51,122 nt of DNA, from the NCBI GenBank assembly GCA_015852425.1, contig JAAAIG010000046.1, positions 2,267 through 53,388 of the forward strand, written 5' to 3'. This DNA is from Gryganskiella cystojenkinii (lineage: Eukaryota; Mortierellomycota; Mortierellomycetes; Mortierellales; Mortierellaceae). The position numbers were made by a program, and so were the translations under genes. Positions within the stretch are counted from its first letter, which is position 1. The number at the start of each line of letters is the position of its first letter. The notes below the pieces were generated by a model. The model searched no databases, had not been told where the DNA came from, and saw only the letters and a program-made list of their open reading frames with translations. This document shows, one piece after another, positions 15,001 to 36,260 of the stretch.

Positions 15001-17742
15001 GTTGAAGGAGGCTCCGCAGTTGGTTCAGCGGCCCGAGGCCGTAAGAACAATTTGACCCGCACCGTGAATACTTATGAGTTCCTCCATCGATCCTTTCTTG
15101 AATATTTCTTCTCCTGTCTGGTTTATGATGCGTTTGAGAGGGCTTCTTTCTATTCTCTGTCTCAGTGCCTGGCCCCAGCCAATAGTCGAGCGTCATCACC
15201 GTCACTAACACTGGCGAGTCATCCCTTTGGTCGAAAGGAGCTGTTGTCGGAACCGTCAATCCTGCGGTTTCTAGTCGACCGCATCCAGTTCGACCCTGAA
15301 TTCAAGGACCTACTCGTGGCTATTGTTCAAAAATCCAAGACTGACAGTCAAGCTGCACAAGCCGCCGCCAACGCTATCACAGTCCTTGTTCGAGCTGGTG
15401 TTCACTTTAACAACACTGATTTGCGAGGGATCCAGATCCCAGGAGCGGACCTGACAGGCTGTCACTTTGACTCTGTGCAAATGCAAGGAGCGAATTTGAC
15501 CAAAGTCAACTTTTCGCGGACCTGGTTACGGCAAGTCGATTTTGGCAACGCAAAGATGGATAACGTCTTTTTCGGGGAGAAACCACATTTTCAAGTCCCG
15601 GGAGTCCGATGTTGCGCATCTTCGCCAAAAGGAAAACTCCTTGCCCTGGGTGTCTGTGAAGCAGTCCAGGCTGAGGATAATGGCCAGACCGGCGGTAAAA
15701 TTCAAGTTTACAACACCGGTGATGGCAACCACAGCTACTCACTTTATTGTCCTGAAGACGGTATCTCCTGCCTGGATTTCTCGAGAACGGGCTTGTATTT
15801 GGCATCGGGGGGCTTTGGAGGAACCGTCAGTATGTGGGATGTGAAAGAAAAAAGGTGTGTGTTTTCTGTGCAGGAGCATTCTGATATCGTGAACTGTATC
15901 TCGTTTTCACCCGATGGATCTCAAATCATCTCGGCCAGCAATGATCGGTCTGTACGGGTCTGGAACGTGAGTCAGCAAAAATGCATCCTTGTCTTGAAGC
16001 ACACGCACGAGGTCCAGAGTGTTGCCTGGTCGCCGGACGTACAACACATCTTATCGTGCACCATCCAAGGAGAGTCGATCCGCATTAGTAACGCTTCCAC
16101 AGGCGAGACAGTAAAGGACTCGGTCGAGGGACTGGATCTCTTTCAGTGCATGGCCTACTCAATGGATGGCAAGTACATTCTTCTGGGAGTAGGAAAAGAC
16201 TTGCATCTATTGGATGCAGAGACCGGTAACCGAGTGCGAATCATGGAAGGCCACACCGAAAAGATCACCCGCACGACCTTTTCCGATGATGGCAAAAGGA
16301 TGGCCTCGATTAGTACGGACCACACGGTGCGCTTGTGGGATGTTCACACCGGGTCGCCTATCTGCATCTGGACGAGTGACTCTGATTTGATACAGGATGT
16401 GGTCTTCTTTGGTGACCAGCAGCTAGCAACGTTCAGTAACGAGGGCATTATAAGGCTCTGGGAGTCTAGTGCTGAGAACCATGACGATATGGCGTATTCG
16501 GACGGTGGTCTTGCCTCACAGACACACAGGGGAGCCGTCTACAAGGTCCTGTATTCAGCTGATGGTACGACTCTGACCACAGTCAGTGACGACAAGACCG
16601 TTCGACAGTGGGACACGAAGACGGGGCTCTCGGTCAAATCTTTCAATCTCCCTGATTATTTCGACAGGAATTTTGTGAATTTCGGAATCACATCCAAGGG
16701 TCTAGAAGTCGCCATCACTCAGCCAGATGACGTTCTGGAACTCTACAACCTCCAAAATACAGACTCTGAGCCTTCTGTCCAGAATGTGGGACTCAGTTCT
16801 TGTCCCTTAATTGCTTCGCCCTGTGGTCGTTGGATCGCAGACGGGGACTCTATTGGAAGAATTCGAGTATGGGGTCTCTCGTCATCAGGGCCGACGAAAG
16901 CACGATTCTTCGACGGCCACAGTAAGCGGATCAGGGGCCTTGCTTTTTCACTGGATGGTCAACAGCTCGTGTCCTCGAGCGAGGACAACGATATGCGAGT
17001 GTGGGATCGTGCGACGACAGATTGCGTCGATGTCTGGCACAAGCGAGCTGAGGCGGTGGCGTGGTCTCCCTGTGGCAAAATGATCGCCAGCACGGACGAC
17101 GACGATATTCAAATCCGGAACAAGCGTCAGAGTGACCATATTGTGGATTTGACTGGCCACGATAATCGTATCCGATCTATGGCCTGGTCTCGGTGCAGCC
17201 AATGGCTTGCCTCGAGTGATGACGATGAAGTCATTCGAGTGTGGAGGGTCGTGCCTTCGGAAGGACAAAAAAAACTCGCTGGATCCTGTAAGGCGGTTAT
17301 TCAAGATACCATTGGAACTGTGACAAGTCTCGCCTGGAGTCCAGTGCAGTCGACCTTGGAGTTTGCTACTGCAGGTCAAGATCACTCGGTCTGTCTTTGG
17401 CGATTGATGGTCGAGAACAAATCGCGTCAGGCTGGCAAAGAGACGGTTCGAATCTGCCTTGTCTGGGCCCACGTTCCTGAACGATTGGTCGTTTCCGGTG
17501 CGGTGATCACGTCGGCGGTCGGTTTGGAAAAGATGGATAGGACCATGTTGAGACAACGGCATGCGATCGATGAGTCTTCTTCGATAGTTTTCAAGGACAA
17601 AAGCTTGAAGCAAATTGAAAAGCGCGAGGGAAAACTCCAGGACAATGGAACCGAAGGACTGTTGAGGGATGGCGCCAAGGTCGATGTAGATGCGGAATCG
17701 TCGGACGAAGAGCCGAGTTGGGTAGACTTGTTGAACAATTAA
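12007..17742 (+). CDS. NLR-like protein: helical domain, NACHT-type P-loop NTPase, pentapeptide repeats, WD40 propellers
   Basis: A single-exon gene of 1911 aa. The start ATG is in the context CTCAAAATGACAAAG, which is matched in the paralogue. Order: a Ser/Pro/Lys-rich basic N-terminus (1-60); a low-complexity Ser run (about 180-205); an all-helical region around 235-640; a NACHT-type NTPase with Walker A GDSGAGKS (670-677) and Walker B FVLICDGYDE (737-746), then a sensor-like 'MVITCR'; a helical segment to about 1110; a short pentapeptide-like stretch ('IPGADLTGCHFDS', 'MQGANLTKVNFS', about 1139-1190); and about 14 WD40-type blades (for example VSMWDV, VRVWNV, VRLWDV, IRVWRV, VCLWRL), enough for two seven-blade propellers. 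The acidic tail ends SWVDLLNN. By family this is a STAND-class NTPase that would oligomerise when the propeller senses a ligand. An immune or heterokaryon-type role is inference. No N-terminal effector domain is recognisable. Confidence 0.88.
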   Translation: MTKSSTTPNSRPAKKSIFSAFPLLNRSASKANSPPSSKNKPPSIRDGLASSFAGQGYLPKITGAGAAPVIPAISETYTVIGSVTAMLAASATKPTTSMAISSPPPSSSNDRPTVLEKSALSHKTTQPDVDKYTLLSNVFPRNVSRFERCILPPKVDSRIDEILQLVLSVSLLSMDTRPSSPSSPSASLSSSSSSPSSSSVLSSSSTLISSRQPVQVEWIQSISNRPLEKERILRLPVKMIDKFLARPNKDAEAIREIVLIGPVLSKEQYRRLLNSFVSEFGSMTLLDVDVLHGLIQLVQDAPPKYLTADDMIQILRIIRKRLEDPAQQSEENTIPLMSALCKVLDIMEFNKVKDLDRVEEHEPLIAVIEASMASEDPLLKYLACYAFEALLCVPDDEPVLHGVFRHAMGTIDGIVKISGVAQMDISGLVEGVPAVIKGGMGLFGHLKKALGYKPNAPWYAAVRRAQVLVRAGLFKDLNIFVVKSPSRRDPMFQWGVCQLLGEIAVDRLWEETPRGQSIDFLKAMFKIEARSNQYEDTRRWVVTILNHIVDLSATEPSSGIDSGAIKVQAPIVVEYLGKVARPLAYSYPLINRLPLPRSSSLLKEINDIPEIELHLGRLRMERLETYSKPAVYIQLMSKRNLQATNDNVESLDDRVDGFLKGKAEVLLVLGDSGAGKSIFNQRLENQLWKAYTAGDAIPIFVDLKSVRNLDEDMVTQMLLLNNFTEDQIRELKKSHRFVLICDGYDECRKWINLHTINHLNKRNQWQAKMVITCRRQYLVPDYRGYFEPEGAMLPGAAPTGSSRLYEEAVIVPFQAGQIRAYIDQYILAAHENEPSQDPLSDSTTWTADQYLTQLNKMAHLMDLIRNPFLLKLVLDTLPRIALASIARSHQITRAELYDEFVRMHFENEQRRLIGQNSRGKMDREIAKELLSMQGNNFILNGVLFSKRLSNRIFEELEGVNSVDYSHDSDEDSWKFDFFGPDTRSKLLRESSQLICRTSVEGGSAVGSAARGRKNNLTRTVNTYEFLHRSFLEYFFSCLVYDAFERASFYSLSQCLAPANSRASSPSLTLASHPFGRKELLSEPSILRFLVDRIQFDPEFKDLLVAIVQKSKTDSQAAQAAANAITVLVRAGVHFNNTDLRGIQIPGADLTGCHFDSVQMQGANLTKVNFSRTWLRQVDFGNAKMDNVFFGEKPHFQVPGVRCCASSPKGKLLALGVCEAVQAEDNGQTGGKIQVYNTGDGNHSYSLYCPEDGISCLDFSRTGLYLASGGFGGTVSMWDVKEKRCVFSVQEHSDIVNCISFSPDGSQIISASNDRSVRVWNVSQQKCILVLKHTHEVQSVAWSPDVQHILSCTIQGESIRISNASTGETVKDSVEGLDLFQCMAYSMDGKYILLGVGKDLHLLDAETGNRVRIMEGHTEKITRTTFSDDGKRMASISTDHTVRLWDVHTGSPICIWTSDSDLIQDVVFFGDQQLATFSNEGIIRLWESSAENHDDMAYSDGGLASQTHRGAVYKVLYSADGTTLTTVSDDKTVRQWDTKTGLSVKSFNLPDYFDRNFVNFGITSKGLEVAITQPDDVLELYNLQNTDSEPSVQNVGLSSCPLIASPCGRWIADGDSIGRIRVWGLSSSGPTKARFFDGHSKRIRGLAFSLDGQQLVSSSEDNDMRVWDRATTDCVDVWHKRAEAVAWSPCGKMIASTDDDDIQIRNKRQSDHIVDLTGHDNRIRSMAWSRCSQWLASSDDDEVIRVWRVVPSEGQKKLAGSCKAVIQDTIGTVTSLAWSPVQSTLEFATAGQDHSVCLWRLMVENKSRQAGKETVRICLVWAHVPERLVVSGAVITSAVGLEKMDRTMLRQRHAIDESSSIVFKDKSLKQIEKREGKLQDNGTEGLLRDGAKVDVDAESSDEEPSWVDLLNN
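12860..13079 (+). repeat. 220-bp block identical to the paralogue (conversion tract)
   Basis: Identical base for base to 20294-20513 inside the tandem paralogue, at synonymous positions too. Sequence outside this core and its flanks (about 12736-13165) is clearly more diverged. Confidence 0.85.
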
Positions 17743-18599
17743 GTCTCCCGAGTTACTTTTGAGCAAGTATTAATACATAGTATATTATACCCTGTCGCAT
17801 TAACAAGTATATTTTTTGGCGTCTTGAAACACTCACCTGCCCCTTAGTGCGAGCGACTAGACAGAGAGCACCGCGGAGAAGAAAAAAATAGATATAGAGA
17901 GAGAATAGGATGCGGAAATGGATATTGTTTGCGGTCCTTATTATTTTCACTGTCAGTGCTATGGCCAGGTCTTGGTTAGGAGAAACATATTGCAGTATCT
18001 GACCGTTACAAGTAACATGCATCTCTCTTATTTTTGCTGCTTGTGTCAACCCCCTGTTTGCAAGTTTTTTCATGCTGCACTACAATCTTTTTGTTTTGTT
18101 TATAAACCATCTTGGAATAGCTCGCCCCTTTCTTGGAACACACTCTGTTTGAATATGACTTCATCGAACATTTGGACCAAAGGCATGAAAAATAAAAAAT
18201 GGCGCTCTTCGTCCGAGTCGACTGTGCGCGCGTCCAAAAAGAACGCGTCCAAGAAAAAGAGTCTCGCCCTACATCCTTCTTTTGACCTTTTTCTTTTTTT
18301 TTCTTTTTTTTCTGCAAGGAGTAGAGTAAAAAAAAAGGGCAAAAGATCATGATTGCATGCAGAATGCAAGGCAGCTCAGGAGGGAAGGCCCTATTGAGTT
18401 CTCGTTCTTGTTTACTTGTGTTTCTTTTCTTTTCCTTTGTACTACCATACCACTACAAACGAAAAAATACACCACCAGGAGTGGTTCTGGAATGATAAGT
18501 GTGTGTGTATGTGTGTAATCAACTCATCAACCCGATGGCAATGGCGACATGCAATGCATGCATGCATGCATTCAAAAAAGGAAGAGGGTAAAAAGAGGG
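17743..18599 (+). other. Intergenic region between the NLR-like paralogues
   Basis: 3' flank of the first NLR-like gene, then AT-rich sequence, homopurine runs near 18280-18340 and an ATGC-tetranucleotide run around 18553-18571. No supportable gene. Confidence 0.5.
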
Positions 18600-18607
18600 T
18601 ATAAAAA
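18600..18607 (+). promoter_or_regulatory. TATA-box-like element
   Basis: TATAAAAA follows an AG-rich stretch and precedes a pyrimidine-rich tract with many CTC/CAC words, as expected for a transcription start about 30-60 bp downstream. It would drive the second NLR-like copy through a leader of roughly 870 bp. Confidence 0.4.
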
Positions 18608-18879
18608 ACCAAGAAAAAAAAACATCTTTACTTGCTTTTGACTCACCTTTATCCTCCACACACTCTGTAATCGCTGACTTCTTTCACGCTGTCCTGTTTT
18701 CTTGGTCCTTTGCGTCCTTATCATCTCGACGCTCCCATTCAGCTCAGCCTGAGTGCCGTAAATCTTCTTCCTACCAAAAAGCTCTCATTTAGTTTCCTTT
18801 TCCATTTCCCCGGCGCAATCAAAAACAACCAAACAACCCAAAACAACCAAAAAAGAAAAAGAAAAAATCGACCGTGCTG

Positions 18880-19500
18880 CTGTTGTGCGCCAAAACAATT
18901 TGTAACACTCTTCGAGGTACGAACAAGTACGCGCCCCCGAAGAAGCGCAAAGAATAAGCAGTAACTAAAACAGCGCGTTGGGGCTAAAAACTTCGGCAAT
19001 CTTCTCCCTTCCACTTTCTTCTCTCGTGTAGTCGACCTCTGTTCATAAGAGAGTCCAAGACCCTCAAAACAATGACGTGCAAACAATAGTTATCATGCCC
19101 TTTTGAACGATCCTGACAGCTCTCATTTACACTCGTATTTCCTGTCACGACTCTAGTCAACTCCATCGCCCGCCTGCCTGCATTGCCTGCACTCTCCAAC
19201 CGACTTTCTTGAAACAAACAGCACCAGCAGGAATCCCAACCGCTTCCAGAGTCCGCCTACTTTTGTAACATTCGAAAGGGAAAAGGTAAATAAGAGTTCT
19301 TGACACTGCACTGCATGTATGCATGCATACTTAACAACACTTCCCGCAAAAATAAAAAGGGTTCGTCTCGAATTGTCCAAATAACACATATTTTGTACGC
19401 GCGGAATATTTTTTTTTCTTTCTTTCTAGCGTATGCAGATATCAACCATCCTTGGACGGCACCGCAACTTTGTTTCGAGAAGCAACTTACCAGGCGCCAA
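18880..19500 (+). promoter_or_regulatory. 5' leader of the second NLR-like copy with a probable UTR intron
   Basis: Homologous in word order to 11291-12006. Likely last intron 19286 (GTAAAT) to 19429 (TTTCTTTCTAG), 71 nt before the ATG at 19501. The copy also contains a TGCATGTATGCATGCATA stretch near 19313. Confidence 0.5.
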
Positions 19501-22500
19501 ATGACAAACAAGCCCATCAAGAAATCAAAGTTCCTCGCTTTTCCGCACTTGGCCAGTGCGGCCCTCAGAGGGAAAACCCCTGTTACTTCCGGCAAGAACA
19601 AACTCCGATCTATTCGGGATGGCATCGCCCTGTCCCTCACCGCACAAGGCCTACTGCCAAGGGAAAAGGGCATCAGAGTGGTACCCACCATACCAGCAAT
19701 ACCGCTAGCATCCACGATCGTCGCAGCGATGACCGTCATCGTGACGGCCCCAACTGTACTTAGACAAATAACACCTCTCCCAGCAGTGTTGGCACCGTCA
19801 GCCTTGGATCGCACTCCCCAGGAGTCAGTTATGCACAACAGCCTCCGCCCTAACATCTTTTCCAAGAACGTTTCAAGAATTGAACGAGAGATCATCCTGC
19901 CCAACGTTGGCAGTCGCATTGATGAGACTCCACAACTTGTCCACTGCATCGATCTACTCGCCAGGGCAACACGAACGTCCTCGTCGTCCACGTCTACCTC
20001 ATCTTCTTCGCCTGCATCATTCTCAACTTCATTATCGTCATCGACATCGCCATCTCCGACGAGTTCGCCTCTGACGCCACCGCAAGTTCAATGGATTCAA
20101 ACCATGTCTACCCGTACTGCCGAGCAGGGCATGATTTGCCGTTTACCTGTTCAAATGATTGATAAGTTTATCTCACGACCGAATAAGGACGCGGAAGTCA
20201 TCCAAGAGATCGTTCTTATCGGACCCGTCCTCAGCAAGGAGCACTATCGACGGTTGCTCAACAGCTTCGTCTCAGAGTTTGGTTCGATGACTTTGCTTGA
20301 TGTTGACGTACTCCATGGTCTTATTCAGCTTGTTCAAGATGCTCCGCCAAAGTATCTCACAGCCGATGATATGATCCAGATTCTTCGGATCATCAGAAAG
20401 CGACTGGAAGACCCTGCTCAGCAGTCAGAGGAGAACACGATCCCTCTCATGTCTGCGCTCTGCAAGGTCCTCGACATTATGGAGTTCAACAAAGTCAAGG
20501 ATCTCGATCGTGTTGAGGAGCATAGACCTCTGATTGCGGTCATAGAGGCGTCAAAGGCAAGCGAAGACCCACTTTTGAAGTACCTTGCATCCTATGCATT
20601 CGAGGCCTTGTTGTGTGTACCCGACGACGAGCCTATCCTTCATAGTCTTTTCCGCAATGCGAAAGACACCGTCAGAGGGCTCGTCAAGGTCTCCAATGTG
20701 GTTCAATTGGAATTCGATGGACTCACGGAGGGTTTGCCAGTATTGATTGAGGGAGGACGAGGTCTCTTTGGTCACCTCAAAAAAGCACTGGGTGTCGCTC
20801 CTCATGCTCCCTGGTATAAGGCTATTCGTCAAGCCGAGATTTTGACCCGAGAAGGCCGTTTCGCTGATCTGAACACGTTTGTCATCAAATCCAAGAGTTG
20901 TCCGCACCCAATGTTTCAGTGGGGTCTCTGCCAGTTGCTAGGCGAGATTGCAGTCGATCAATTGTGGGAAGAAGCCCCTCGTGGCCAGGCTATCGAATTC
21001 CTCAAGTTTGTGTTCAATTCTGAAATGGAGTCCAGTCGTCACCGAGATGTCCGGAGATGGATCGTGACTATCCTCGATCACGTAGGAAAGCTCTGCACCG
21101 ACGAGACCTCATCCCAAATCGATCGCGGAGCAATCAAGGTCCAGGTATCCTTCATCGCAGGAGATCTGGGTAAGGTTGCACCATCGCTCGCATATCCATA
21201 CCCTTTGATCAACCGTCTGCCTTTACCGCCGTCGTCTTTAATATTGAGGGATGTCCACAACACGCCGCCCAACCTTGAACTCTATCTGGATCAACTACGA
21301 CTGGAACGACAGGCGAGTTACAACAAGCCGCTGGTATATATCCAGCCGATGTCGAAATCAAATCTACAAGCCTCCAGTGACAAACTCGATCTATTGGACG
21401 ACTGCGTGAATGATTTTCTCAGAGGCAGAGCCCAGGTGATGCTGATCATGGGTGACTCTGGCGCTGGAAAATCAATCTTCAACGAACGATTGGAGAACCA
21501 GCTCTGGGAGACCTACTCGTTCGGAGACGCCATTCCGCTCTTCATAAACCTGAAAAATATCAGCAAGCCGGACGAGGATATGATCGCCCAGATGTTATAT
21601 CACTACAACTTTTCTGAGAATCAAATTCTTGAACTCAAAAAGTCGCATCGTTTCGTTCTCATCTGTGATGGCTATGACGAGTGCCGCAAGTGGACCAATC
21701 TCCATACCAATAATAAGCTCAACAAACCGAACCAGTGGCGGGCCAAGATGGTGATCACCTGCCGCAGTCAGTACCTAGTGCCTGATTACCGTTGTTACTT
21801 TGCACCTCAATGCATGGTGTCCGGCATGAGTCAATCTTTCCTCTCTGACTTCTATGAAGAGGCGGTCATTGTACCGTTCCAGCCGAAGCAGATCAGTGCC
21901 TATATCGAACAACATACTCTATCCACCGAAGGGAACCTGCAAGGTCATAAGCACCATCACAAATCCAGGAACACAGCCTCTTCGTCTGCGGATCAGTACA
22001 TGAAGCAACTCAGCAAAATGGGTCATACGATGGATCTTGTCAAAAACCCGTTTCTACTCAAGTTGGTCTTGGACACCTTGCCTCAAACAGTCCCTGCCAC
22101 TGCCGTGGCCTTTCACGACAACAATAATGACGGCAACAATGACATGACTCGGGCACAACTTTACGATGCGTTTGTGGCGATGCACTTTGAAAAAGAGCAG
22201 AATCGCCTACGCGACCAACAATCAAGGGGCAAAATGGACACTGAGAGTGCAAAGGTGTTCTTGGAAATGGAGATGGAGGGCGATGATTTTATATTTGGCG
22301 GAATTGATTATTCCAAGAGACTCTCGGACTGCATATTCAAGAACCTGGATGGTGTCAACTCAGTCGATTACGTGCATCAGTCTGATCGCAAGACATGGAA
22401 GGTCGATTTCTTTGGTCCCGAGACGCGTTCCAAGTTGCTTAGGGAATCGAGTCAAGTGATATGTCACACAAGTATCCAAGAAAGTTCCTATGCTGTTGTT

Positions 22501-25293
22501 GGCGGAGCCGGTCGTGCACGCGCCCAGAAGAGTTTGACTCGTACAGTAAGAGCCTATGAGTTCATGCATCGGTCCCTGCTCGAATATTTCTTTTCCTGTC
22601 TGGTCTATGATCCACGCGAGAAACCCTTCTTTAATGAGTTGTCGCATGGTCCTGGTTTGATTAACGGACAAGTCTCCCCATCATCGTTGTCACCACTGGC
22701 GCTGCATCCTTTCGGTCGAAGAGAGCTATTGACGGAACGGTCGGTTCTTCATTTCCTGGTTGACCGAGTGCAACTGGACGTCGATTTCGAGAACCAACTT
22801 ATGAGAATTGTTCAAAAGTCAAAGTCTGATGATCAAGTTGCTCAAGCTGCTGCTAACGCCATCACGGTCCTTGTCCGAGCTGGAGTTCGCTTCACCGGTG
22901 ATGATCTGCAAGGGATCCAGATCCCAGGGGCGGATCTGACGGGTGGTCACTTTGACTCTGCAAAGATGAACGGAGCAAATTTAACAAAAGTCAATTTCTC
23001 TCGGACTTGGCTTCGACAAGTGGACTTCACGGATGCAAAGATGGAGAACACCTTTTTCGGGGAAAGGCCATATTTTCAAGTACGCCACACCAGGTGCTGT
23101 GCTGCCTCGCCAAAGGGGAAACTCCTGGCCCTTGGTCTCTCGGGTAGAGTCCATGACGAGAACGACGATCTAATGGGTGGCAAGATTCATATTTACAACA
23201 CCAGCGACGGTACATGTCGATACGCGCTCTCTTGCCCTGCAGATGGCATTTCGGCGCTGGACTTCTCAAGGACGGATTCTTTCCTGGTATCAGGTGGTAT
23301 CTCTGGAACCGTCACTCTGTAGGACCTGAAGAAACGGTGTCGTGTTTTTTTTGTGCAAGAGCATTCTACTACGATCAACAGCGTGTCGTTCTCACCTAAT
23401 GGATCCCTGATCGCCTCGGCAAGCGACGATCGATCCGTCAGGATTTGGAGTGTCAAAGAGGGGAACTGTCTCCTTGTCTTGAAGCACGCGGTTGAGGTCC
23501 AAAGTGTCGCCTGGTCCCTCGATGGACGCCATATCCTTTCTTGCACGAACCATGGAGAAACGGTCCGAATCAGCAATGCAATCACTGGTGAAGCTGAGGG
23601 AGTTCTGGCCCAGGGTCTCAAGCACTTTTCATGCGTGGCTTTCTCCCTTGACGGCCAGTTCTTTCTTTTGGGAAATGACAAGAGTTTGTACCTACTGAGC
23701 GCTCTGAACGGCGAATTGATCCGGACGATGAGCGATCATACCGATACTATCACACACACAGCCTTTTCGCGGGACTGTAAAAGGATGGCCTCTGTCGGTA
23801 CGGATCGCACGTTGCGGTTGTATGATGTCCAAACAGGGTCTGTTATCTGTGTCTGGAGCAGTGGCATGGAGGTGATTCTCGGCCTTGTATTTCTAGGTGA
23901 TCGGCAAATCGCGACTTTTAGTGACGAGGGTACGGTGCGACTTTGGGAATCCGATACGGGAAAATCTGATGAGATGGCCTATCTAAGTGGTCAGCTGGTT
24001 TCGCAGGGGCACACAAAAGCGGTCCACCAGGTTATGTATGCACCCGACGGCCAGTCTGTCCTGACAGCCAGCGATGACAATACGGTTCGGCAGTGGAGTA
24101 CTCGTGATGGAAAGTCGATCGCTTCTCACAACCTCCCGGATCACCTGAACAGAAAAGATGCCAGCGTCGCAATTTCGTCAGATGGGCAAAAGCTCGCTGT
24201 CGTCCAACAGGATAAAAGTCTGCAGCTACACGACTTTCGAGACCTTTCTGTGTTGCCTTCCACCCAAGAACGGCTTTCGGTTAGTTCTTGTCCTCTGATC
24301 TGTTCACCCTGTGGGCGTTGGATTGCGGATGGCGATCGAAATGGAAGCATACGACTCTGGAATATCCATGAGTCAGGCTCGACGCAGTTACGGTCGACTG
24401 TTGGCCATAGCCAACAGGTTAAGAGTCTATCGTTTTCATTGGATGGTCAACAAATGGTGTCCTGTGGAGAAGATCACAAAGTTCGACTGTGGGATTGCGC
24501 TACGTTTGTTTGTGTCCATGTCTATGATTCGCGAGCGAATGGTCCGGCCTGGTCGCCCTGTGGGACAATGATCGCCTGGACGTTCGACTATGACATTCGG
24601 ATTTGGAGCGTAACTCAAGGATGTCGCAAGATGAACTTTGCTGGGCATGAACATCATGTTCGGTCTCTGGCCTGGTCCCGGTGCAGTCAGTGGATCGCGT
24701 CAAGTGATGATGACGGGACGATCCAAGTCTGGAAGGTCCATGCGGATTCGAAAAAGGATCAGAGAGCCGTGTTCGATGGCGCAAGCGGAAGCTCTAAGGC
24801 TGTTATTCAAGGCGCGGTTGGAACTGTGACGAGTCTAGCCTGGAGCCCTGTACATTCGACTTTGGAATTTGCTACTGGCAGTCTGGATAACTCGGTCTGT
24901 CTTTGGAAGTTGATGGTCGAGAACAAGTCGGGTCAGGTTGGCGAAGAAACGGTGCGAGTAGTTCTTGTCTGGGCCCATGTTCCTGAACGATTGGTCGTCT
25001 CCGGTGCGATGATCACGCTCGCGGTTGGATTGGGCAAGATGGAGCAGCGAATGATGAGACAACGGCATGCAGTTGATACGTCTGAGGATGGACACCTTGG
25101 GACGAAAAGTGGGAACAGAGTCGCAGAGGATTTTGACGAATGGTCCGAGGATGAGTTCGAAAATGGCGATGATGCTGAGGGAGAGTCAGAGGATGAAGCA
25201 CCTAGGCGCAAAAAGGTGTTCCCAGGTACGGAGTCCTCAGGCAGAGTGATAAGATTAAAAGACTCTGGAGTCAAGGTCGATCTAGAGCCTTAG
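19501..25293 (+). pseudogene. NLR-like paralogue with a single in-frame amber codon (NACHT + pentapeptide + WD40)
   Basis: It is collinear with the gene at 12007: same start context (CCAAATGACAAAC), Ser-rich N-terminus, helical region, Walker A GDSGAGKS, Walker B FVLICDGYDE, pentapeptide stretch and about 14 WD40 blades. The frame is open for 1273 codons and is stopped by TAG at 23320-23322. It then continues in the same frame, without any other stop or shift, for 656 more codons to TAG 25291-25293. The stop sits exactly where the paralogue has the blade tryptophan (TGG, codon 1277, 15835-15837), so one G-to-A change explains it. Translation to the first stop would give a NACHT-pentapeptide protein nearly without propeller. 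It could be a very young pseudogene, a polymorphic allele, a sequencing error, or a codon corrected in RNA. The tail after 25080 is acidic (EDFDEWSEDEFENGDDAEGE). Confidence 0.8.
20294..20513 (+). repeat. 220-bp block identical to 12860-13079
   Basis: Partner of the identical block in the first NLR-like gene. High similarity extends about 120 bp upstream and 90 bp downstream and then drops. Confidence 0.85.
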
Positions 25294-29260: not shown

Positions 29261-31420
29261 TCAAGGATCGAGACAATTTCTACAATCGATCCCTCGATCG
29301 ACCAAGATCCTTCTCGCAGTTTCGTCCAAGGCAACCGAGGTCATGGTCTGCAATCGAGGCCAATGCTCCAGGACCCAGAGAGCCTCTTTTTCGGTCCAAA
29401 AGAAGGTCTGGTTTCTGAAATCGGGGCCGTGTAGGACTTTTAGCCGTTTCAGGGTCCTTAATTGATCGAGTCCGCCCTTCAAAGTCAACTGCAGGATTCG
29501 ATAGGCGCGAGGGACATAGCAGACGTTGAGATCTAAAATCTCAAGCTGTTCGAGGGTTGACAGACGGGAGAAAACTAGGGACTCGGTTGTAACCATAGAC
29601 GTGGTGGAGGTCCCGGGGGTATTCGAGACGTAATAAGCAGACGATGGGACAGCATCAGAGGTCATGTGAACACTGTCGTCAATGTCGTCACCATTATGAT
29701 TTTCGTATTCTTGACCCTTTTTCTCTTCGTTCTCATCCTCATTGCTTATATGGAACTCGTCCATGCCTGACTCGTCTTCTAAAAATACAATGTCGTCGTC
29801 TCCGTCCGAGACATACCCTTCAAAGATCTCGTCATTCGGGGGTTCACCTGAAGAGCGATCGAAAAACAGGGAGAGCTCTTTCAAGCCGAGACAGATCCAG
29901 GGTCTCAATGCCTCTCCTTGTTCGTGTCCATATCCTTGCTCATCCAACAAGACCAGATCGCAGCGGCACAAATTATCGGCTTTAAAGATCCGCAAGCCTG
30001 AGAAACTGCACAAGATCTCCTGAATGAGCTTGCCCGTGACTTCTCTACAACCCTCGAGGTTCAATTCTGTGAGTGTCGACTGGTATCGACCATGATCTTG
30101 ATTCATCAGGATTTGAAGACACTGATCATCGAAATTCGTCAGAGACAGCTCCAGCCCCGTTAGAGATGGAGAGGCGCCGATTAGGGTCTCAAAGTCCTCG
30201 GTCGCAAAGTTGATCCATCTCATGCACAGAAATGCCAATCGAGAAGAGAATACAGGATTTCGGACCGACAGCGAGTCGCCATCACCGCTGTCACCGTCGC
30301 TACTGCTGCCGTTGCTGGAACCCCTCAGACGAACTGCTTGAGCCAAGTACGCCATAGGCGCCAAGGTGGTTGAGTATGGATTGTCGCCCTGGCTACTTGT
30401 CCAGGAAAGTCGAGTCAATTTGGGACTGCTAAGGATCATTCTCAACGGGACCTCATAGAATTTGGGTCGAACGACAGACATATCGATACTCAGGTCTTGA
30501 ATCGCCGTTGTTATCGCGGAGATTGGTTCTGCAGACGTGAAGGATGCCTCAAGACCCTGGATGCTGGAATAGTTGATAATACTAGTGTCGGTGTGGTGAT
30601 CATACTGACTACTTTCCTTTAGAGTCAGTTGATTCAGATAAAGGACCTCGAGATTATTGGACCAAAGTTGTTCGTATTGTTGTGTCGTCCACTTGTCCAG
30701 ATCGATAAATGTTTCACTGTGCTCAAGTCGTCGTAACCGAGGACATCCCGCAATGACATCCAATAGTTCCTTGGAAAAGATCCGGCTAGAGAGTTTCAAG
30801 ACCTCGAGTGTGCGTTGGTGAAGTCTGATGATCTCAATGAGAGAGGACCTTTGGCGATCTCTTTGCTCCTCCATTTCCTTGCGACTGCTGTGCTCAAGAC
30901 CATAATTGGTCACGTCGGTCTCATAGAAGTCGTCGTTGTCGTCAAAGGCCCAGTGTATATTGATAATCAGAGTCGAGAGGTTGACACAGTGGATGAGGCG
31001 CCGTCCGTCGGGTTGTAGAAGTGTTAAATCAGAAGCAAATGAGTAGATCTCGAGTTCTTGAACCAGGTACGCGTGCTTGAGAAACGCAAAGGGGTCGTCC
31101 TGGTGTCTTTGTCCACCAAAGACTGGTTTCCAGTCAGAGTTCAGCTTGACCTTGGACCAGATTGAGGGTAAAAGTAAAGTATGCCATTGTTTGCAGACAT
31201 GGAGACATTGGAGGATGGAATAAGAGTCGAGGAATCGAGAAATGGAAAAAAAGACCTCGGGAAGGTCAAGGGCTTGGTGATGACGTTGGTTGTGAGCATG
31301 TCGTTCCTGAGAATAGGATTCCAGTTCTTGCTGCTGATGCTGTTGTAGCTGACGATGACGTTCCCAGAGTTGCCGACTAGCTGATTGTCGTGGTAATTTC
31401 TGTTGGGCCGTCCTTGCCAT
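29261..31420 (-). CDS. F-box/LRR protein
   Basis: A single-exon gene of 719 aa; ATG at 31418-31420, TGA at 29261-29263. A Gln/His-rich N-terminus (about 1-48) precedes the F-box (LDLPEVFFSISRFLDSYSIL, then 'IWSKVKL', about 50-95). LRR-type repeats follow ('LRRLEHSET', 'PSLTGLELSLTNFDDQCLQI', 'LTELNLEGCREV'), then the family segment LRPWICLGLKELSLFF, a very acidic insert (YVSDGDDDIVFLEDESGMDE), 'LEILDLNVC', and the C-terminal module (EKEALWVLEHWPRLQ...DRGIDCRNCLDP). Closest relative in the window is the gene at 34047-36260: both have the long N-terminal extension and matching F-box and C-terminal wording. Role inferred as SCF substrate adaptor. Transcription runs toward the NLR relic. Confidence 0.88.
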   Translation of the reverse strand: MARTAQQKLPRQSASRQLWERHRQLQQHQQQELESYSQERHAHNQRHHQALDLPEVFFSISRFLDSYSILQCLHVCKQWHTLLLPSIWSKVKLNSDWKPVFGGQRHQDDPFAFLKHAYLVQELEIYSFASDLTLLQPDGRRLIHCVNLSTLIINIHWAFDDNDDFYETDVTNYGLEHSSRKEMEEQRDRQRSSLIEIIRLHQRTLEVLKLSSRIFSKELLDVIAGCPRLRRLEHSETFIDLDKWTTQQYEQLWSNNLEVLYLNQLTLKESSQYDHHTDTSIINYSSIQGLEASFTSAEPISAITTAIQDLSIDMSVVRPKFYEVPLRMILSSPKLTRLSWTSSQGDNPYSTTLAPMAYLAQAVRLRGSSNGSSSDGDSGDGDSLSVRNPVFSSRLAFLCMRWINFATEDFETLIGASPSLTGLELSLTNFDDQCLQILMNQDHGRYQSTLTELNLEGCREVTGKLIQEILCSFSGLRIFKADNLCRCDLVLLDEQGYGHEQGEALRPWICLGLKELSLFFDRSSGEPPNDEIFEGYVSDGDDDIVFLEDESGMDEFHISNEDENEEKKGQEYENHNGDDIDDSVHMTSDAVPSSAYYVSNTPGTSTTSMVTTESLVFSRLSTLEQLEILDLNVCYVPRAYRILQLTLKGGLDQLRTLKRLKVLHGPDFRNQTFFWTEKEALWVLEHWPRLQTMTSVALDETARRILVDRGIDCRNCLDP

Positions 31421-31595: not shown

Positions 31596-31712
31596 CCTCA
31601 TCCTCATCCTCATCGTCATCCTCTGCGACAACATCCTACTCTGTATTCATAACTGACAATGAACCAAAAGTTGATAGAGTAACTTATTTCTTGCCAGCTT
31701 CTTGTTTATTAT
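31596..31712 (+). repeat. Direct repeat, copy 1 (left flank of orphan-gene island)
   Basis: The core 31632-31707 is about 90% identical by eye to 33964-34040 (shared words CATCCTACTCTG, AACTGACAATGAACC, GAGTAACTTATTTCT, GCCAGCTTCTTGTTT). A TCATCC-type repeat precedes the core in both copies. Confidence 0.8.
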
Positions 31713-32456
31713 TTAAATTGCGGTGTCCACACACACGACCCCGTTCCAGTCCTTCGATCGATGGTACCACCCGCTCCAGGGAACAGTCATCTCAATCCAA
31801 TGTGGTCGCCTCTAGCGTGGAACGCCGACCCGACTGAGAGCACCACAAAACCACGCACTTGATGAACTTCCTCGACTTCGTGCTAGAGTCCAAGTCGTGG
31901 AACATCGAGGGATCCTCTCTGCTTCGTACCCTCGAATTTTCCCATGGTTGCCTCGAAATTTTGTTTGTGCAACCATATTCGCCCTTTACCCAAAAATATA
32001 ATAATGTTTTTGGTTAAATATCCTGAGGCGAAGCTAAATAATAAGTCATGTATTTCTTTTCTCTTCCTTGTTTTCTTCTTCCACCTTTGATCATCTCTCC
32101 TTTTCCCGTCTTTGCTTTCCCTGTCGAACTGACGTCCCTTTCTTGACCGCAATTCAGCACATGGAGCTTCGGCCTTTCAGGAACATAACAACACCAACAA
32201 GCACCTTGCTATCCACCGCGCGTCTCTTACTGCTTTTGTCTTCTTGCCTGATATCGCTCCGAGCAGCATCCCTGGTGAGACCTTTTCTCTCGTTCTCTTC
32301 TTTTTCCTCGTGAACCTCGACTATCGCATTTAGCAGGACCGGCATCTAATTATTTTTCTTACCTGACTCGTTATAACATAGCGAGAATCTCTCGATAGAC
32401 ACAAAGAGAGCTCGGCCTGAAATCACGCAAACAGAAAACACAACAAAACAGTGCGT
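31713..32456 (+). other. Non-coding flank of the orphan gene, with a signal-peptide-like mini-frame
   Basis: No clear gene. An ATG at 32161 opens a frame with a hydrophobic, signal-like run (LLSTARLLLLLSSCLISLRA). A GT donor follows at 32275 and a TTTAG acceptor near 32333, but the continuation stops after a few codons. The stretch before the orphan gene (32425-32456) is A/C-rich, as in fungal 5' leaders. Confidence 0.35.
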
Positions 32457-32473
32457 GTACGAGTTTTTAAAAA
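32457..32473 (+). repeat. Inverted repeat, left arm (17 bp)
   Basis: GTACGAGTTTTTAAAAA; its exact reverse complement is at 33864-33880. The centre AGTTTTTAAAAACT (32462-32475) is itself a palindrome. It ends 8 nt before the orphan gene's ATG. Confidence 0.9.
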
Positions 32474-32481
32474 CTTCCCGC

Positions 32482-33858
32482 ATGACTCTTCCGCTGGAGA
32501 TACTTGAGGAGATAGCCTCTTACACTAGTGGGTATGTCTGCTGTGTACTAGGCTTAGACCTGTCGACACCACGCGTTCGCGAATGTATGTTTCAGAGTGG
32601 TGGACCTGGAAGGGTCTTTTCCGAGATCCTGTCTCGTGGCGGTGATCCCAGAGCATTACTTACCATCAAGGAGTATGTACCCTCCTACATTGCCATTGCC
32701 AAGGCCGTGGTGACGATAGACCGCACGATGTTGGTCAGGATCATATGCATGTATGGTACTAACATCAGCGATGGAGGCCTCAAGTTGGCCTTAGAGATGG
32801 ACTTTGCGTACGCGGTGGACACCCTCGAACCTTCTCTTGACGAAACCATAAGACATCGGGATGCATACTACATCTCTAAGGGTAGATACGATGACGTGGA
32901 TAGGACCATCGATGATCCATACGGAATGGTTTATGGCGTTGGTGGAGATTCATCCAAGTTACTCCCCACCATCGATGAAGGAACCCAATGCAAGCTACTA
33001 GCGCTGTATGGTAACACGGAAGCAACCTTAGAGGCATTGGAAGGGTTGGAGTTAACGGATAGACATGAACGCATCTTGGACATCCTACGTACAACATCGA
33101 TGACCATGGCTATTGTTATATACACGAGACATAAAGGATACGACTACGAGTTCGCGGAAAGACTCTCCGACATAGGAACCCTTGAAGACCTGGCACTTGT
33201 CCAATGTACCTATGTCGGAAAGCTTGTCCAAGCATTCATGGAGGACAGCTACGAACACTCATGGAGAAGCCTAACTACCCTCATCTGTGCAAGTGGATTC
33301 CTCATGAGACATGGTATGGAGAAGAAGCTCTCCGAGTTGCTCCATCGGTGGAGTCATGACCTGACACTTGGTGATGTTATCCATCTGTCTCGGATAATGG
33401 ATGGACGGATACCCCTAGAGAGTTGGAAAACCATCCTTAGGCCTATCTTCCGTGAACAGAGAGGTCTGGTAGATAACCTCATCCTAAACGGATGCGAGAA
33501 GGTTGTAACTTACCTAGCCAGATGTGGTTACGATGTCACCACCACGGATGTTCTTACAGTGGAACATGTAAGGGAGATGGTAAAGGTTCATGGTTACGGG
33601 ATCCTCGACAAGGTGCAACAGATGTACCCCAAGACTGTGGAAGACTCTGTCTGGATCATGCACCAGAGTAGGTACCGAGTTAACGTTACCGAGAGTACTG
33701 GTGCCTCTACACTTGGTAACGACTACTGGATTCCATCGGCTATAGAGAAGAACCCATACGTATGCCCTCAGGCATGCGAAGGTTGTGGCTTCATCTGGAA
33801 CTGGGTAGATTACATGGACTTGTGTCTACACTCCACAACCTATGTCCAAAGGTCTTAA
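32482..33858 (+). CDS. Orphan helical-repeat protein with an F-box-like N-terminus
   Basis: An intronless frame of 458 aa. ATG 32482 is preferred because the open frame upstream runs through the inverted repeat. The N-terminus (LPLEILEEIASYTSG) resembles the opening of an F-box or of the short domain that heads repeat proteins in large DNA viruses. The body looks like degenerate helical repeats rich in Tyr, Asp and Ile ('VVTIDRTMLVRIICMYG', 'TMAIVIYTRHKGYDYEFAER', 'VVTYLARCGYDVTTTDVLT'). A Cys cluster (CPQACEGCGFIWNW) lies near the end. No family is recognised. Unlike its neighbours it uses ATA, CTA, TTA and AGA codons often (about ten ATA in 458 codons by hand count, versus a similar number in the 1911-codon NLR gene). 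It is on the opposite strand to the flanking F-box genes and fits between inverted repeats. Recent arrival by transfer (virus or element) is an inference. The intact frame suggests selection or recency. Confidence 0.7.
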   Translation: MTLPLEILEEIASYTSGYVCCVLGLDLSTPRVRECMFQSGGPGRVFSEILSRGGDPRALLTIKEYVPSYIAIAKAVVTIDRTMLVRIICMYGTNISDGGLKLALEMDFAYAVDTLEPSLDETIRHRDAYYISKGRYDDVDRTIDDPYGMVYGVGGDSSKLLPTIDEGTQCKLLALYGNTEATLEALEGLELTDRHERILDILRTTSMTMAIVIYTRHKGYDYEFAERLSDIGTLEDLALVQCTYVGKLVQAFMEDSYEHSWRSLTTLICASGFLMRHGMEKKLSELLHRWSHDLTLGDVIHLSRIMDGRIPLESWKTILRPIFREQRGLVDNLILNGCEKVVTYLARCGYDVTTTDVLTVEHVREMVKVHGYGILDKVQQMYPKTVEDSVWIMHQSRYRVNVTESTGASTLGNDYWIPSAIEKNPYVCPQACEGCGFIWNWVDYMDLCLHSTTYVQRS

Positions 33859-33863
33859 CCAGA

Positions 33864-33880
33864 TTTTTAAAAACTCGTAC
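33864..33880 (+). repeat. Inverted repeat, right arm (17 bp)
   Basis: TTTTTAAAAACTCGTAC, the exact reverse complement of 32457-32473. It begins 6 nt after the orphan gene's stop codon. Confidence 0.9.
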
Positions 33881-33938
33881 GATGTCATGAAGAGGGGTCG
33901 ATCTAAGATGTCTGCAATCGAAAGGGACTATTGCTTCT

Positions 33939-34048
33939 TCCTCATCCCCATCCTCGTCGACATACATCCTACTCTGCATTAATAACTGACAATGAACCGA
34001 AAGTCGACCGAGTAACTTATTTCTAGCCAGCTTCTTGTTTTTATTATT
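33939..34048 (+). repeat. Direct repeat, copy 2 (right flank of orphan-gene island)
   Basis: Partner of 31596-31712 in the same orientation. It forms the immediate 3' flank of the minus-strand F-box gene that ends at 34047. Confidence 0.8.
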
Positions 34049-36260
34049 ACTGCCTCAATATGTTCGGTTTCCTGATACCATACCATGTAAAATGCCCGCA
34101 ATCGACCCCTCCTTCTTTCAAGATTGTTTCTGCAGCTACATCCAGAGCAACTGAATCCAGGATCTGCAACCGAGGCCAATTCTCCAGGACCCAAAGCGCT
34201 TCTTTCTCTCCCCAATAAAAAATCTGGTTGTGCACATCCGGTCCATGAAGAACCCTGAGCCGCTTCAGATGTCGTAGCTGATCGAGACCATGTCTCAAAT
34301 CGAATTTGAGAATCCGACGCGCCTTTGGGATATATTCAACTCGCATGTCCAGAACTTCCAGGTGCCTCAAGGTCGCCAGACGGGAAAATATTAAGGACTC
34401 GGTCGAAATCTTGTGGAAAAAAGAGCTGCATGAAGCAGCAGAGGACACGGCAGTCGTAGTGATCGTGGTGCTTGTGGTGGTAAGCATGTTGGTCTTGTCT
34501 TCGGTCCCATCCTTGCTATCAACAATGTCTTTGATCGCCAGGACTTCATGCTCTCCTTCTTGAGCACCGCCATCATCATCGCTCTCCTCGTTACGTTCAA
34601 GGGGGCCCCATTGACTATATTCCCAATGCCTTGCATCCACAAAAAATGTACGATCAAAGAATATGGCCAGTTCTTTCAAATCGAGACAGGCCCAGAGCCG
34701 TGGATCCCTGTTATTTCCGATTTTTTCCTGCCCTTGTACATCCAGCAAGACAAGATCGCGACGGAACAAATTATCGGCTTGAAAGACTCTCAGGTTCGGA
34801 AACGAAACCAAGATCGTTTGAAGGACCTTGCCCTGGATGTGTCTACACCCTTTAAGGAAAAGTTCTGTGAGTGTGTTTTGATACCGGCCGTGATTGACGT
34901 TCATCAAGATTCGGCAACTGCGGAAATTGAAATTCGTCATGGAGAGATCCAAGCTGGTCAAAGCCGGCAAGGAACAGATCACAGTCTCAAAGTCCTCTAT
35001 CTGGAAGTGCGCCGCCCTCAGGGACAAAGATCTTATACGAGGACAAAACTTGATTGAGCTCAGCGACGACTGAGGCATGTTACTGTTGGTGTAGTTGGTG
35101 TTGCTACTGACGCTCCCGCCACTTTCCCCTAGTTGCTGTCGAGCTGCTCGAGCCAGAATGGCCATAGGAGAGGCAGTCGTTAACGTGATCCTCAACTTGG
35201 GAAAAACATCCCAGCCCAGTCGCGTCAAATCGGGGCTATTGAGAATCATCCTTATAAGACCTTTGTCGAGTTCCTCTTGGCAAACATAAGACTTTATCTC
35301 CATTTCTCGGATTCGGGTCTTTGTTGTCGCTAGGGTCGTCGTCGTTGTCGTGGTCGATCGTGACAGTAGTTTCCTGGTCAGATCGGCATCATTCTGTTGA
35401 TCCAAAGGGAATGTGTCGCTCTTTTCGTCCACGCCCTCATCGACGTGGCTTTCGTTTTCGCCCTCGCCGCTTTGTATAGGATTGTGAAATCTCTTGTCAT
35501 CAAAAACGGGGCCTTTCAAGCAAAGAGTTTCGATTAGACCACGGGACCAGAGTTCCTCGTACTGACGGGTGATCCATCGGTTCCCGTTACTAAAGTCCTC
35601 TTCTTGCTCCAAGTGCCGTAACCGAGGACATCCTTTAAGAACTTGGAAAAGCTCTTCGGAAAAGATTTGCGTGTTGTTCAGTTTTATCACTTCAAGAGTG
35701 CGCTGATGTCGCCGGATCAGGTCCACCAGGCAGGATTCTCGCTTCGCAATCTCGACAGGGTCCTGTTTTCGCTTGTAGTAGTGCCAGTGTGAATACAGGG
35801 ATAAGGTTTTAAGGCTGAGGCATTGGATAAGAGCACCGTCTGGAGGAAGGTCCAAGAACTCGCGACCAGAGATCTCGAGCTCTTGAATCAGGTGTGCGTG
35901 TTTCAGAAACGCGACAGTATCGTCAATGGGTCCAGACTTGTCGGGGTGTTTTCGGACATAGCCGAGGGCGACAGTACGCCAAACCATGGGAAGGAGGCAG
36001 TTGTACCATCGTTGACAGACCTGTAAGCACTGGACAACAGAGTAATGGTCGAGAAGGTCAATGACGAGCAAAAAGATCTCGGGAATGTCTAATGCAGAAT
36101 AAAGCCGCTCCAATGCATGAGGCTCCCAAGGAATGGGTTGGAGTTCTTTTTGTTGAAGCTGCTCTTGATGTTGGTCCCGCAGCCGTCCATCATTAAGTTG
36201 ATGTTGAAATGTCCACGGGATTGTTGTTGTCATGTGAATGAATTGATGGTTTGTGGGCAT
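34047..36260 (-). CDS. F-box/LRR protein
   Basis: A single-exon gene of 737 aa; ATG 36258-36260 (a second ATG nine codons later is possible), TAA 34047-34049. The N-terminus is Gln/His-rich. The F-box is at about residues 55-100 (LDIPEIFLLVIDLLDHYSVV, 'VWRTVALGY'). LRR-like units include 'LRHLEQEED', 'PALTSLDLSMTNFNFRSCRI' and 'LTELFLKGCRHI'. A Thr-rich run lies in the middle (around residue 300). The family segment is slightly altered (PRLWACLDLKELAIFF) and followed by an acidic insert and another Thr-rich stretch. C-terminal module: EKEALWVLENWPRLQ...EGGVDCGHF. Probable SCF substrate adaptor. Its start lies only 70 bp from the stop of the next gene upstream (36331), so the minus-strand genes are tightly packed. 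Closest paralogue: 29261-31420. Confidence 0.88.
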   Translation of the reverse strand: MPTNHQFIHMTTTIPWTFQHQLNDGRLRDQHQEQLQQKELQPIPWEPHALERLYSALDIPEIFLLVIDLLDHYSVVQCLQVCQRWYNCLLPMVWRTVALGYVRKHPDKSGPIDDTVAFLKHAHLIQELEISGREFLDLPPDGALIQCLSLKTLSLYSHWHYYKRKQDPVEIAKRESCLVDLIRRHQRTLEVIKLNNTQIFSEELFQVLKGCPRLRHLEQEEDFSNGNRWITRQYEELWSRGLIETLCLKGPVFDDKRFHNPIQSGEGENESHVDEGVDEKSDTFPLDQQNDADLTRKLLSRSTTTTTTTLATTKTRIREMEIKSYVCQEELDKGLIRMILNSPDLTRLGWDVFPKLRITLTTASPMAILARAARQQLGESGGSVSSNTNYTNSNMPQSSLSSIKFCPRIRSLSLRAAHFQIEDFETVICSLPALTSLDLSMTNFNFRSCRILMNVNHGRYQNTLTELFLKGCRHIQGKVLQTILVSFPNLRVFQADNLFRRDLVLLDVQGQEKIGNNRDPRLWACLDLKELAIFFDRTFFVDARHWEYSQWGPLERNEESDDDGGAQEGEHEVLAIKDIVDSKDGTEDKTNMLTTTSTTITTTAVSSAASCSSFFHKISTESLIFSRLATLRHLEVLDMRVEYIPKARRILKFDLRHGLDQLRHLKRLRVLHGPDVHNQIFYWGEKEALWVLENWPRLQILDSVALDVAAETILKEGGVDCGHFTWYGIRKPNILRQ

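Follow-up and report, generated by a model that had tools for sequence, protein, structure and literature searches.

Related systems

Bacterial integron cassettes are promoterless single frames with a 3' palindromic element and are sited behind a resident promoter. MITEs and DNA transposons consist of short terminal inverted repeats around a small unit. The locus described here lies in the window, the whole analysed stretch of 51,122 nucleotides from Gryganskiella cystojenkinii. Like an integron cassette, the window unit appears to be a promoterless single frame with a 3' palindrome, which is found in five of seven genes of its family. Unlike integron cassettes, it forms no array and has no known integrase, and an element at both ends is seen in the window copy only. 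It also differs from MITEs and DNA transposons, as no other copies, target duplication, or transposase were found.

Poxviruses encode a multigene family of ANKR/F-box substrate adapters, described in PMC9414399 as having N-terminal ankyrins and a C-terminal F-box. The window family is likewise a multigene family of helical-repeat proteins, for which we infer an adaptor role, and it differs in having neither Pfam match among 14 members. Among the best BFVD structure matches of the window protein, many are F-box and ankyrin proteins of giant viruses (Pandoravirus, Pithovirus), but none of these matches is significant, and no sequence relative was found.

Mortierellomycota possess NACHT-type NOD-like receptors, reported as shared with Mycoavidus endosymbionts (PMC11291939). 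Genes of probable NOD-like-receptor type supply the leader in front of the window gene, and such genes also flank two paralogues (C454 and C548); ARM_5, WD40, and pentapeptide models matched, and the NACHT match is limited to window frame 19300-23322. Unlike NOD-like receptors, the lodged family has no NACHT, ARM, or WD40 match; these Pfam models and that for ankyrin matched none of the 14 family members scanned. Elsewhere in the window, ARM_5, NACHT, pentapeptide, and WD40 models match large receptor-type frames at positions 12007-25293.

The inverted repeat and the enclosed frame

The left arm of the 17-bp inverted repeat, GTACGAGTTTTTAAAAA, is located at 32457..32473 (+ strand), at the junction of a host-type 5' leader and the gene. 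The right arm, at 33864..33880 (- strand), is its exact reverse complement. Between them lies an intact single-exon frame of 458 aa (32482..33858, + strand) encoding a helical-repeat protein of a Mortierellaceae family. The preliminary description reported a perfect repeat around an intact frame of 458 codons, with 8 nt from left arm to frame and 5 nt from frame to right arm; all of this is confirmed. It was also right that the frame is oriented opposite to its neighbors, as both flanking genes are on the - strand: an F-box-like gene above the Pfam cut-off at 29261-31420 and an F-box-like gene below the cut-off at 34047-36260. A 12-bp direct repeat, TTTTTAAAAACT, can be read directly from the sequence at 32464..32475 and, 5 nt past the stop codon, at 33864..33875 (both + strand). 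A long stretch of N is found on the same contig, C508, directly after the window (within C508:53000-62999).

Beyond its two arms, the 17-mer has no further match in the window with up to three mismatches. In 100 shuffles of the window, the mean was 0.09 matches, and none reached two. The exact 17-mer occurs in the 35.0-Mb genome at the two arm sites only. The genome therefore contains no second inverted pair of the kind that the preliminary description proposed to look for, and the frequent random occurrence that it named as a ground for doubt is not seen. With up to two mismatches, the whole genome holds 12 matches for the 17-mer versus 16 for the reversed control. In IMG/VR, the 17-mer is found once each in eight contigs, which we estimate to be about chance level for a collection of that size. 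The bases outside the arms (GTGCGT and GATGTC) are not repeats of each other and thus give no target-site duplication.

A family of Mortierellaceae

The gene was first taken for an orphan, a status that its relatives in other Mortierellaceae and at six further loci in this genome overturn. A search among 5.8 billion proteins, in which 7991 candidates were scored, gave ten relatives in addition to the window protein itself, and a profile search added three more. Relatives are found in Linnemannia elongata (the closest, 91%), Mortierella claussenii (P0003, 74%), Dissophora ornata, and Gryganskiella; the named relatives come from these four genera, every one Mortierellaceae. The seven loci of the genome are on contigs C508 (the window), C95, C779, C548, C809, C454, and C770. 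The gene on C95 is broken into two frames, and C809 is the most divergent locus. For two family proteins of G. cystojenkinii, P0010 and P0011, the searched assembly contains no identical sequence, and it is therefore probably incomplete. The possibility that contig C508 is a contaminant was considered and is not supported; its FGGY_C gene is single-copy in the genome.

The 458-aa window protein has no match in Pfam or NCBIfam and nothing significant in PHROG. Pattern scans of IMG/VR and a search of phage records gave no viral relative. A bacterial donor was considered and set aside, as a scan of GTDB-based contigs with two peptide patterns gave no bacterial relative. No donor of the family DNA emerged from the searches made, and a limited literature search returned no publication describing the family. 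It is so far undescribed and named from Mortierellaceae only.

By blastn, DNA similarity between the window gene and five paralogues covers 216 to 471 bp, in the front half only, and none is detected with C809. The first 95 codons form a conserved module, and the remainder diverges among paralogues.

The structure model of the window protein is confident (pLDDT 87, pTM 0.83) and mostly helix, and it has no significant fold match. The model is possibly that of an alpha-solenoid with an ankyrin-like front and longer helical repeats behind. The protein would most likely act as a protein-binding adaptor. The F-box-like opening claimed in the preliminary description finds no support in the sequence: none of the 14 members of alignment A1 matches PF00646 or PF12937 at E<=10, in a scan where HMMER filters drop most weak matches. 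In fold comparisons with F-box and ankyrin proteins, any likeness of the window protein is within noise.

Codon use and composition

The window gene has a host-likeness codon score of -0.009, compared with 0.009 to 0.077 in 13 neighboring frames. Codon use unlike that of the neighbors, as first noted, thus holds against 13/13 frames, with the caveat that one of 49 host chunks of the same length scores as low (-0.010). The share of GTA, ATA, and AGA among Val, Ile, and Arg codons is 0.30-0.44 in seven of eight family frames, representing six of the seven loci. In the host, this share is at most 0.22 in 23 genes and at most 0.23 in 75 chunks, and one host gene, c454_529 (0.22), is fairly near in codon use. 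C809, at 0.16, is host-like. The dinucleotide TpA stands at 0.91 of expectation in the family pool (without C809, with gene 2 of C779) versus 0.48 in host genes. At six of seven loci, the family looks compositionally foreign to this fungus.

Gene 2 of C779 is a 461-codon frame beside the family gene (C779:17428-18810, - strand). Its codon use is also foreign (GTA, ATA, and AGA share 0.33), with a bias like that of the family, and its first ATG is 65 nt past the C779 3' motif. A partial copy with 87% identity is located at C3:49177-49695 (- strand). No relative of gene 2 is known from the searches made, IMG/VR included, and its best PDB match, a fibre chain with E 0.014, is weak. A decayed second gene downstream of all family copies was read by eye and is rejected, as tblastn with gene 2 gave nothing significant; the gene is supported only on C779 and, as a fragment, on C3.

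Exchange between genera and mosaic structure

The window protein and L. elongata P0002 differ at 14 of 363 positions over residues 96-458 (96% identity) and at 27 of 95 over residues 1-95 (Fisher, 4.4e-11). The first block of P0002 is 98.9% identical to P0006 of the same species and so was probably replaced in L. elongata. As a control, the UDP-glucose 4-epimerase of C548 is 69-75% identical to five Linnemannia representatives among the best 120 of 7800 matches, in a database clustered at 90%. To other genera, again among the best 120 of 7800, it reaches at most 77% at coverage of at least 95%, and up to 81% at partial coverage. This calibration uses one control enzyme from another contig, in a species with a second epimerase (P0057), so that orthology is uncertain.

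Identity of 96% over 363 residues, against 69-75% for the control, makes a recent exchange of the gene between fungal genera likely. In this protein comparison, identity between genera is well above that of the single control, as expected of a horizontally exchanged gene. M. claussenii P0003, at 74%, is about as similar as the epimerase control (74%).

Within the genome, dS between C548 and C454 is 0.29 over codons 1-95 and 1.68 beyond. This break suggests gene conversion of the front module. In 7/7 comparisons, dN is well below dS, consistent with purifying selection on the family, with dS near saturation in six of the seven.

The right arm and the 3' palindrome

The TTTTTAAAAA part of the right arm (9 or 10 bases) is common to the 3' ends of four paralogues. 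When genes are aligned by stop codon, (T)TTTTAAAAA stands at or just past the stop in C95, C779, C770, and C454. C548 has a degenerate form, and the motif is absent from C809. In total, 5/7 family 3' ends have the motif at the stop, versus 0/91 other frames of at least 150 aa (Fisher, 3.1e-7). The value is 7.8e-7 when the broken C95 front frame is scored as a miss and 4.3e-6 without the window gene, in which the motif was discovered. The count covers 196 kb retrieved from the genome, including 8.5 kb of N, in which some frames overlap one another; one frame running through N was dropped, and the C95 front frame, which ends inside the gene, was kept apart. The shared motif is remarkable because the DNA similarity of the paralogues is limited to the front half.

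No motif is found just before the start in C95, C770, C548, C454, or C809, and the start of C779 is off the contig. A left copy is thus not seen in the three motif-bearing paralogues whose start is in the assembly. The preliminary description offered, as one option, a gene that carries its own palindromic promoter and terminator signals. Of that proposal, the palindrome at the 3' end is supported as a feature of most family genes.

The palindrome is not rare, with 676 genomic sites for TTTTTAAAAA. The whole-genome counts are asymmetric, as AAAAATTTTT occurs 51 times. Around other sites, 28 stretches (27 distinct TTTTTAAAAA sites, all picked for G on one side) were inspected for a genome-wide gene-border signal; by eye, no family gene was apparent. 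A 60-99-codon open frame ends nearby in 13 of the 28, and three of these 13 frames reach the edge of the stretch, where longer genes are possible. The 28 stretches leave room for a role of TTTTTAAAAA at other gene ends.

Family-like sequence may extend beyond the right arm by roughly 20 to 45 bp. Positions 33881..33926 (+ strand) are a candidate remnant of the native downstream sequence of the family, with weak similarity to C95 and C779 that is suggestive only. Against C95, the observed score was reached in 0/300 shuffles for an ungapped 20-mer, 19/300 for 12-mers, and 24/1000 with gaps; against C779, it was reached in 8/1000 with gaps and 36/300 for 20-mers. C809 is hardly similar (129/1000), and C770, C454, and C548 show no similarity (with C809, a range of 129 to 711 per 1000). 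One of four host controls reached 48/1000.

The left arm, the leader, and the junction

A truncated 5' leader is located at 31927..32448 (+ strand). It has patchy similarity (69-85%) to the upstream regions of ARM_5-type genes and of one Crinkler gene. Parts of it are related to sequences on C79, C270, C765, C475, C893, and C840, and a 48-bp piece also matches C439, the seventh contig with similarity. The frames behind the leader are ARM_5 on C270, C475, and C840 and Crinkler on C79; those on C893 and C765 are similar to these by eye. Patchy leader sequence of up to ~500 bp is thus common to ARM_5-type genes and a Crinkler gene, as if a single promoter served unrelated effector-like families.

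With strict scoring, similarity to the leader stops just before the left arm, at 32448 (C79) and 32439 (C270). With loose scoring, it ends at 32405-32474 across the six relatives and enters the arm for C79, C765, and C475. In five of the six relatives (not C840), the leader continues with TAGGTAAAG, which the window lacks. Similarity of the window gene to its paralogues starts at 32487-32497, which corresponds to codons 2 to 6; for C779, it starts from the contig edge. From these two limits, ~33 bp holding the left arm separate the truncated leader from the lodged gene. The left arm is thus located where the leader breaks off, or no more than a few bases from that point. This position and the shared 3' motif make the repeat unlike transposon ends.

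A 110-bp direct repeat is found on either side of the gene, with its left copy at 31604..31713 and its right copy at 33936..34045 (87% identity), the latter beside the gene at 34047-36260 and bounding the lodged segment on the right. These copies are probably the 3' flanks of tandem F-box-type genes.

Other lodgings in receptor-type genes

At C454, DNA of a pentapeptide/WD40 gene is present on both sides of the family unit, and ~245 bp of the host gene are missing. At C548, DNA of a receptor-type gene is found on the left side of the unit only. The C548 and C454 frames and P0010 start with ~67 residues that also match within 13 other long frames (975 to 1843 codons) and within two shorter frames. 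Two of these frames were fetched; both contain WD40 repeats, and one has a pentapeptide match among the matches listed. Their WD40/pentapeptide make-up is like that of window frame 19300-23322 (ARM_5-NACHT-pentapeptide), and they are called receptor-type by this likeness. In L. elongata P0005, a GTPase domain precedes the family sequence in one fused protein.

The left junction is common to C548 and C454, which therefore probably represent one event; together with the window, this makes at least two lodgings. Judged from these junction sequences, the family appears to have lodged in or behind immune-receptor-like genes at least twice.

Origin of the locus

The reading we favor, with modest confidence, is that the window gene is a copy of a foreign-derived Mortierellaceae family lodged behind a truncated leader, and that the repeat is two copies of a border element. 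The unit would be a single-exon gene without a promoter, closed in most copies by an AT palindrome of its own, TTTTTAAAAA, at the stop codon. In the window, it would have settled among tandem F-box genes, directly downstream of what remains of an ARM_5-type (receptor) promoter and 5' leader, and it would probably be transcribed from that leader. The right arm would be the native 3' element of the family and the left arm a second copy at the insertion junction, so that the 17-bp repeat would be two copies of one palindromic gene-border element and not transposon ends. The paralogues would share and exchange their first 95 residues and diversify the remainder. The more conjectural parts of this reading are transcription from the leader, the adaptor role, the mode of insertion, and the foreign origin, perhaps viral; the family itself, its composition and mosaic structure, the 3' motif, and the leader truncation are observed. 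Several points count against it. Nothing in the paralogues corresponds to the left arm, whose inverted match to the right arm includes 7 bp more than a simple second copy would explain. The leader similarity enters the arm under loose scoring, the exchange is calibrated by one control enzyme, similarity beyond the right arm is weak, and no donor was found. C809 has neither the 3' motif nor foreign codon use, C548 has the motif in degenerate form, and the number of TTTTTAAAAA sites in the genome is large.

A serious rival, which we regard as possible on present evidence, is a virus or plasmid origin. The family would then derive from a large DNA virus, or a cytoplasmic linear plasmid, that infects or inhabits Mortierellaceae and is so far undescribed; copies of this fragment would have been captured and partly domesticated, and TTTTTAAAAA would mark its gene borders as a promoter or a 3'-end signal. 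The foreign codon use, which the family has in common with the adjacent gene 2, is in line with this, as are the single-exon structure and tight packing on C779. Insertion of a large DNA virus has been reported in another basal fungus (PMC10640383), which is counted in its favor. The top BFVD matches, mostly giant-virus ankyrin or F-box proteins, point the same way, but they are not significant, with a best E of 0.021 and TM of at most 0.32 among the 50 matches listed. Against this origin, neither the window protein (IMG/VR, phage records) nor gene 2 (IMG/VR) has a viral relative. Searches for capsid and VLTF3 (PF16903, PF04947) gave no match in the genome, and the controls were equally silent. 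Of the capture first proposed, the foreign look of the composition and a probable recent exchange between fungal genera are supported; capture from a virus in particular is possible, with no viral relative found in IMG/VR or BFVD.

Rather doubtful is a native, fast-evolving Mortierellaceae family under weak codon selection, with the AT motif as an ordinary 3'-processing signal and the repeat as an accident of local rearrangement. Such a family would fit the restriction of all named relatives to four Mortierellaceae genera and the divergence of P0003, which is about that of the epimerase. The codon use of c454_529 is fairly close, and one host chunk in 49 scores equally low. However, the GTA/ATA/AGA share (six of seven loci) and TpA (in the pool only) are outside the sampled host range. 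A 96% match to another genus over 363 residues is unexpected for a fast-evolving family, and the motif stands at the stop in none of the 91 other frames.

A eukaryotic gene-cassette system, in which promoterless units ending in the TTTTTAAAAA palindrome move between loci and genera and insert behind or inside receptor-type genes, is unlikely. Recombination between the 3' palindrome of the unit and a palindromic target would leave a copy of the core on each side (GTACGAG-core-gene-core-CTCGTAC) and would account at once for the inverted repeat and for the 12-bp direct repeat. Against this, the 3' motif is found at the leader end in none of the six related leaders, and the palindromic target is thus absent from that place.

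It is very unlikely that the unit is a MITE-like cassette or a non-autonomous DNA transposon in which 17-bp terminal inverted repeats enclose one cargo gene. A perfect repeat tight around one frame is what such an element would look like, and the preliminary description accordingly considered a compact mobile cassette bounded by its repeats. That proposal is disfavored by the single genomic pair, the lack of a duplication just outside the arms, and the paralogues, which share the right motif and show no left copy where the start is assembled. In addition, Pfam and NCBIfam gave no transposase match, and similarity may extend beyond the right arm, although this is suggestive only. A chance match is hardly credible: TTTTTAAAAA is palindromic and has many genomic copies, but no shuffle of the window gave two matches, and the right motif is a feature of the family.

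Implications

If the favored reading holds, a gene neatly framed by an inverted repeat is not always part of a transposon. Mortierellaceae would harbor a gene family, foreign in composition and as yet undescribed, that is common to several genera and swaps its front module between copies. This family would have lodged at least twice in or behind receptor-type genes that are thought to serve fungal immunity. The locus would be a concrete case for studying promoter acquisition by foreign genes in early fungi, and the family may have been left behind by a DNA virus or plasmid of these fungi that is not yet known.
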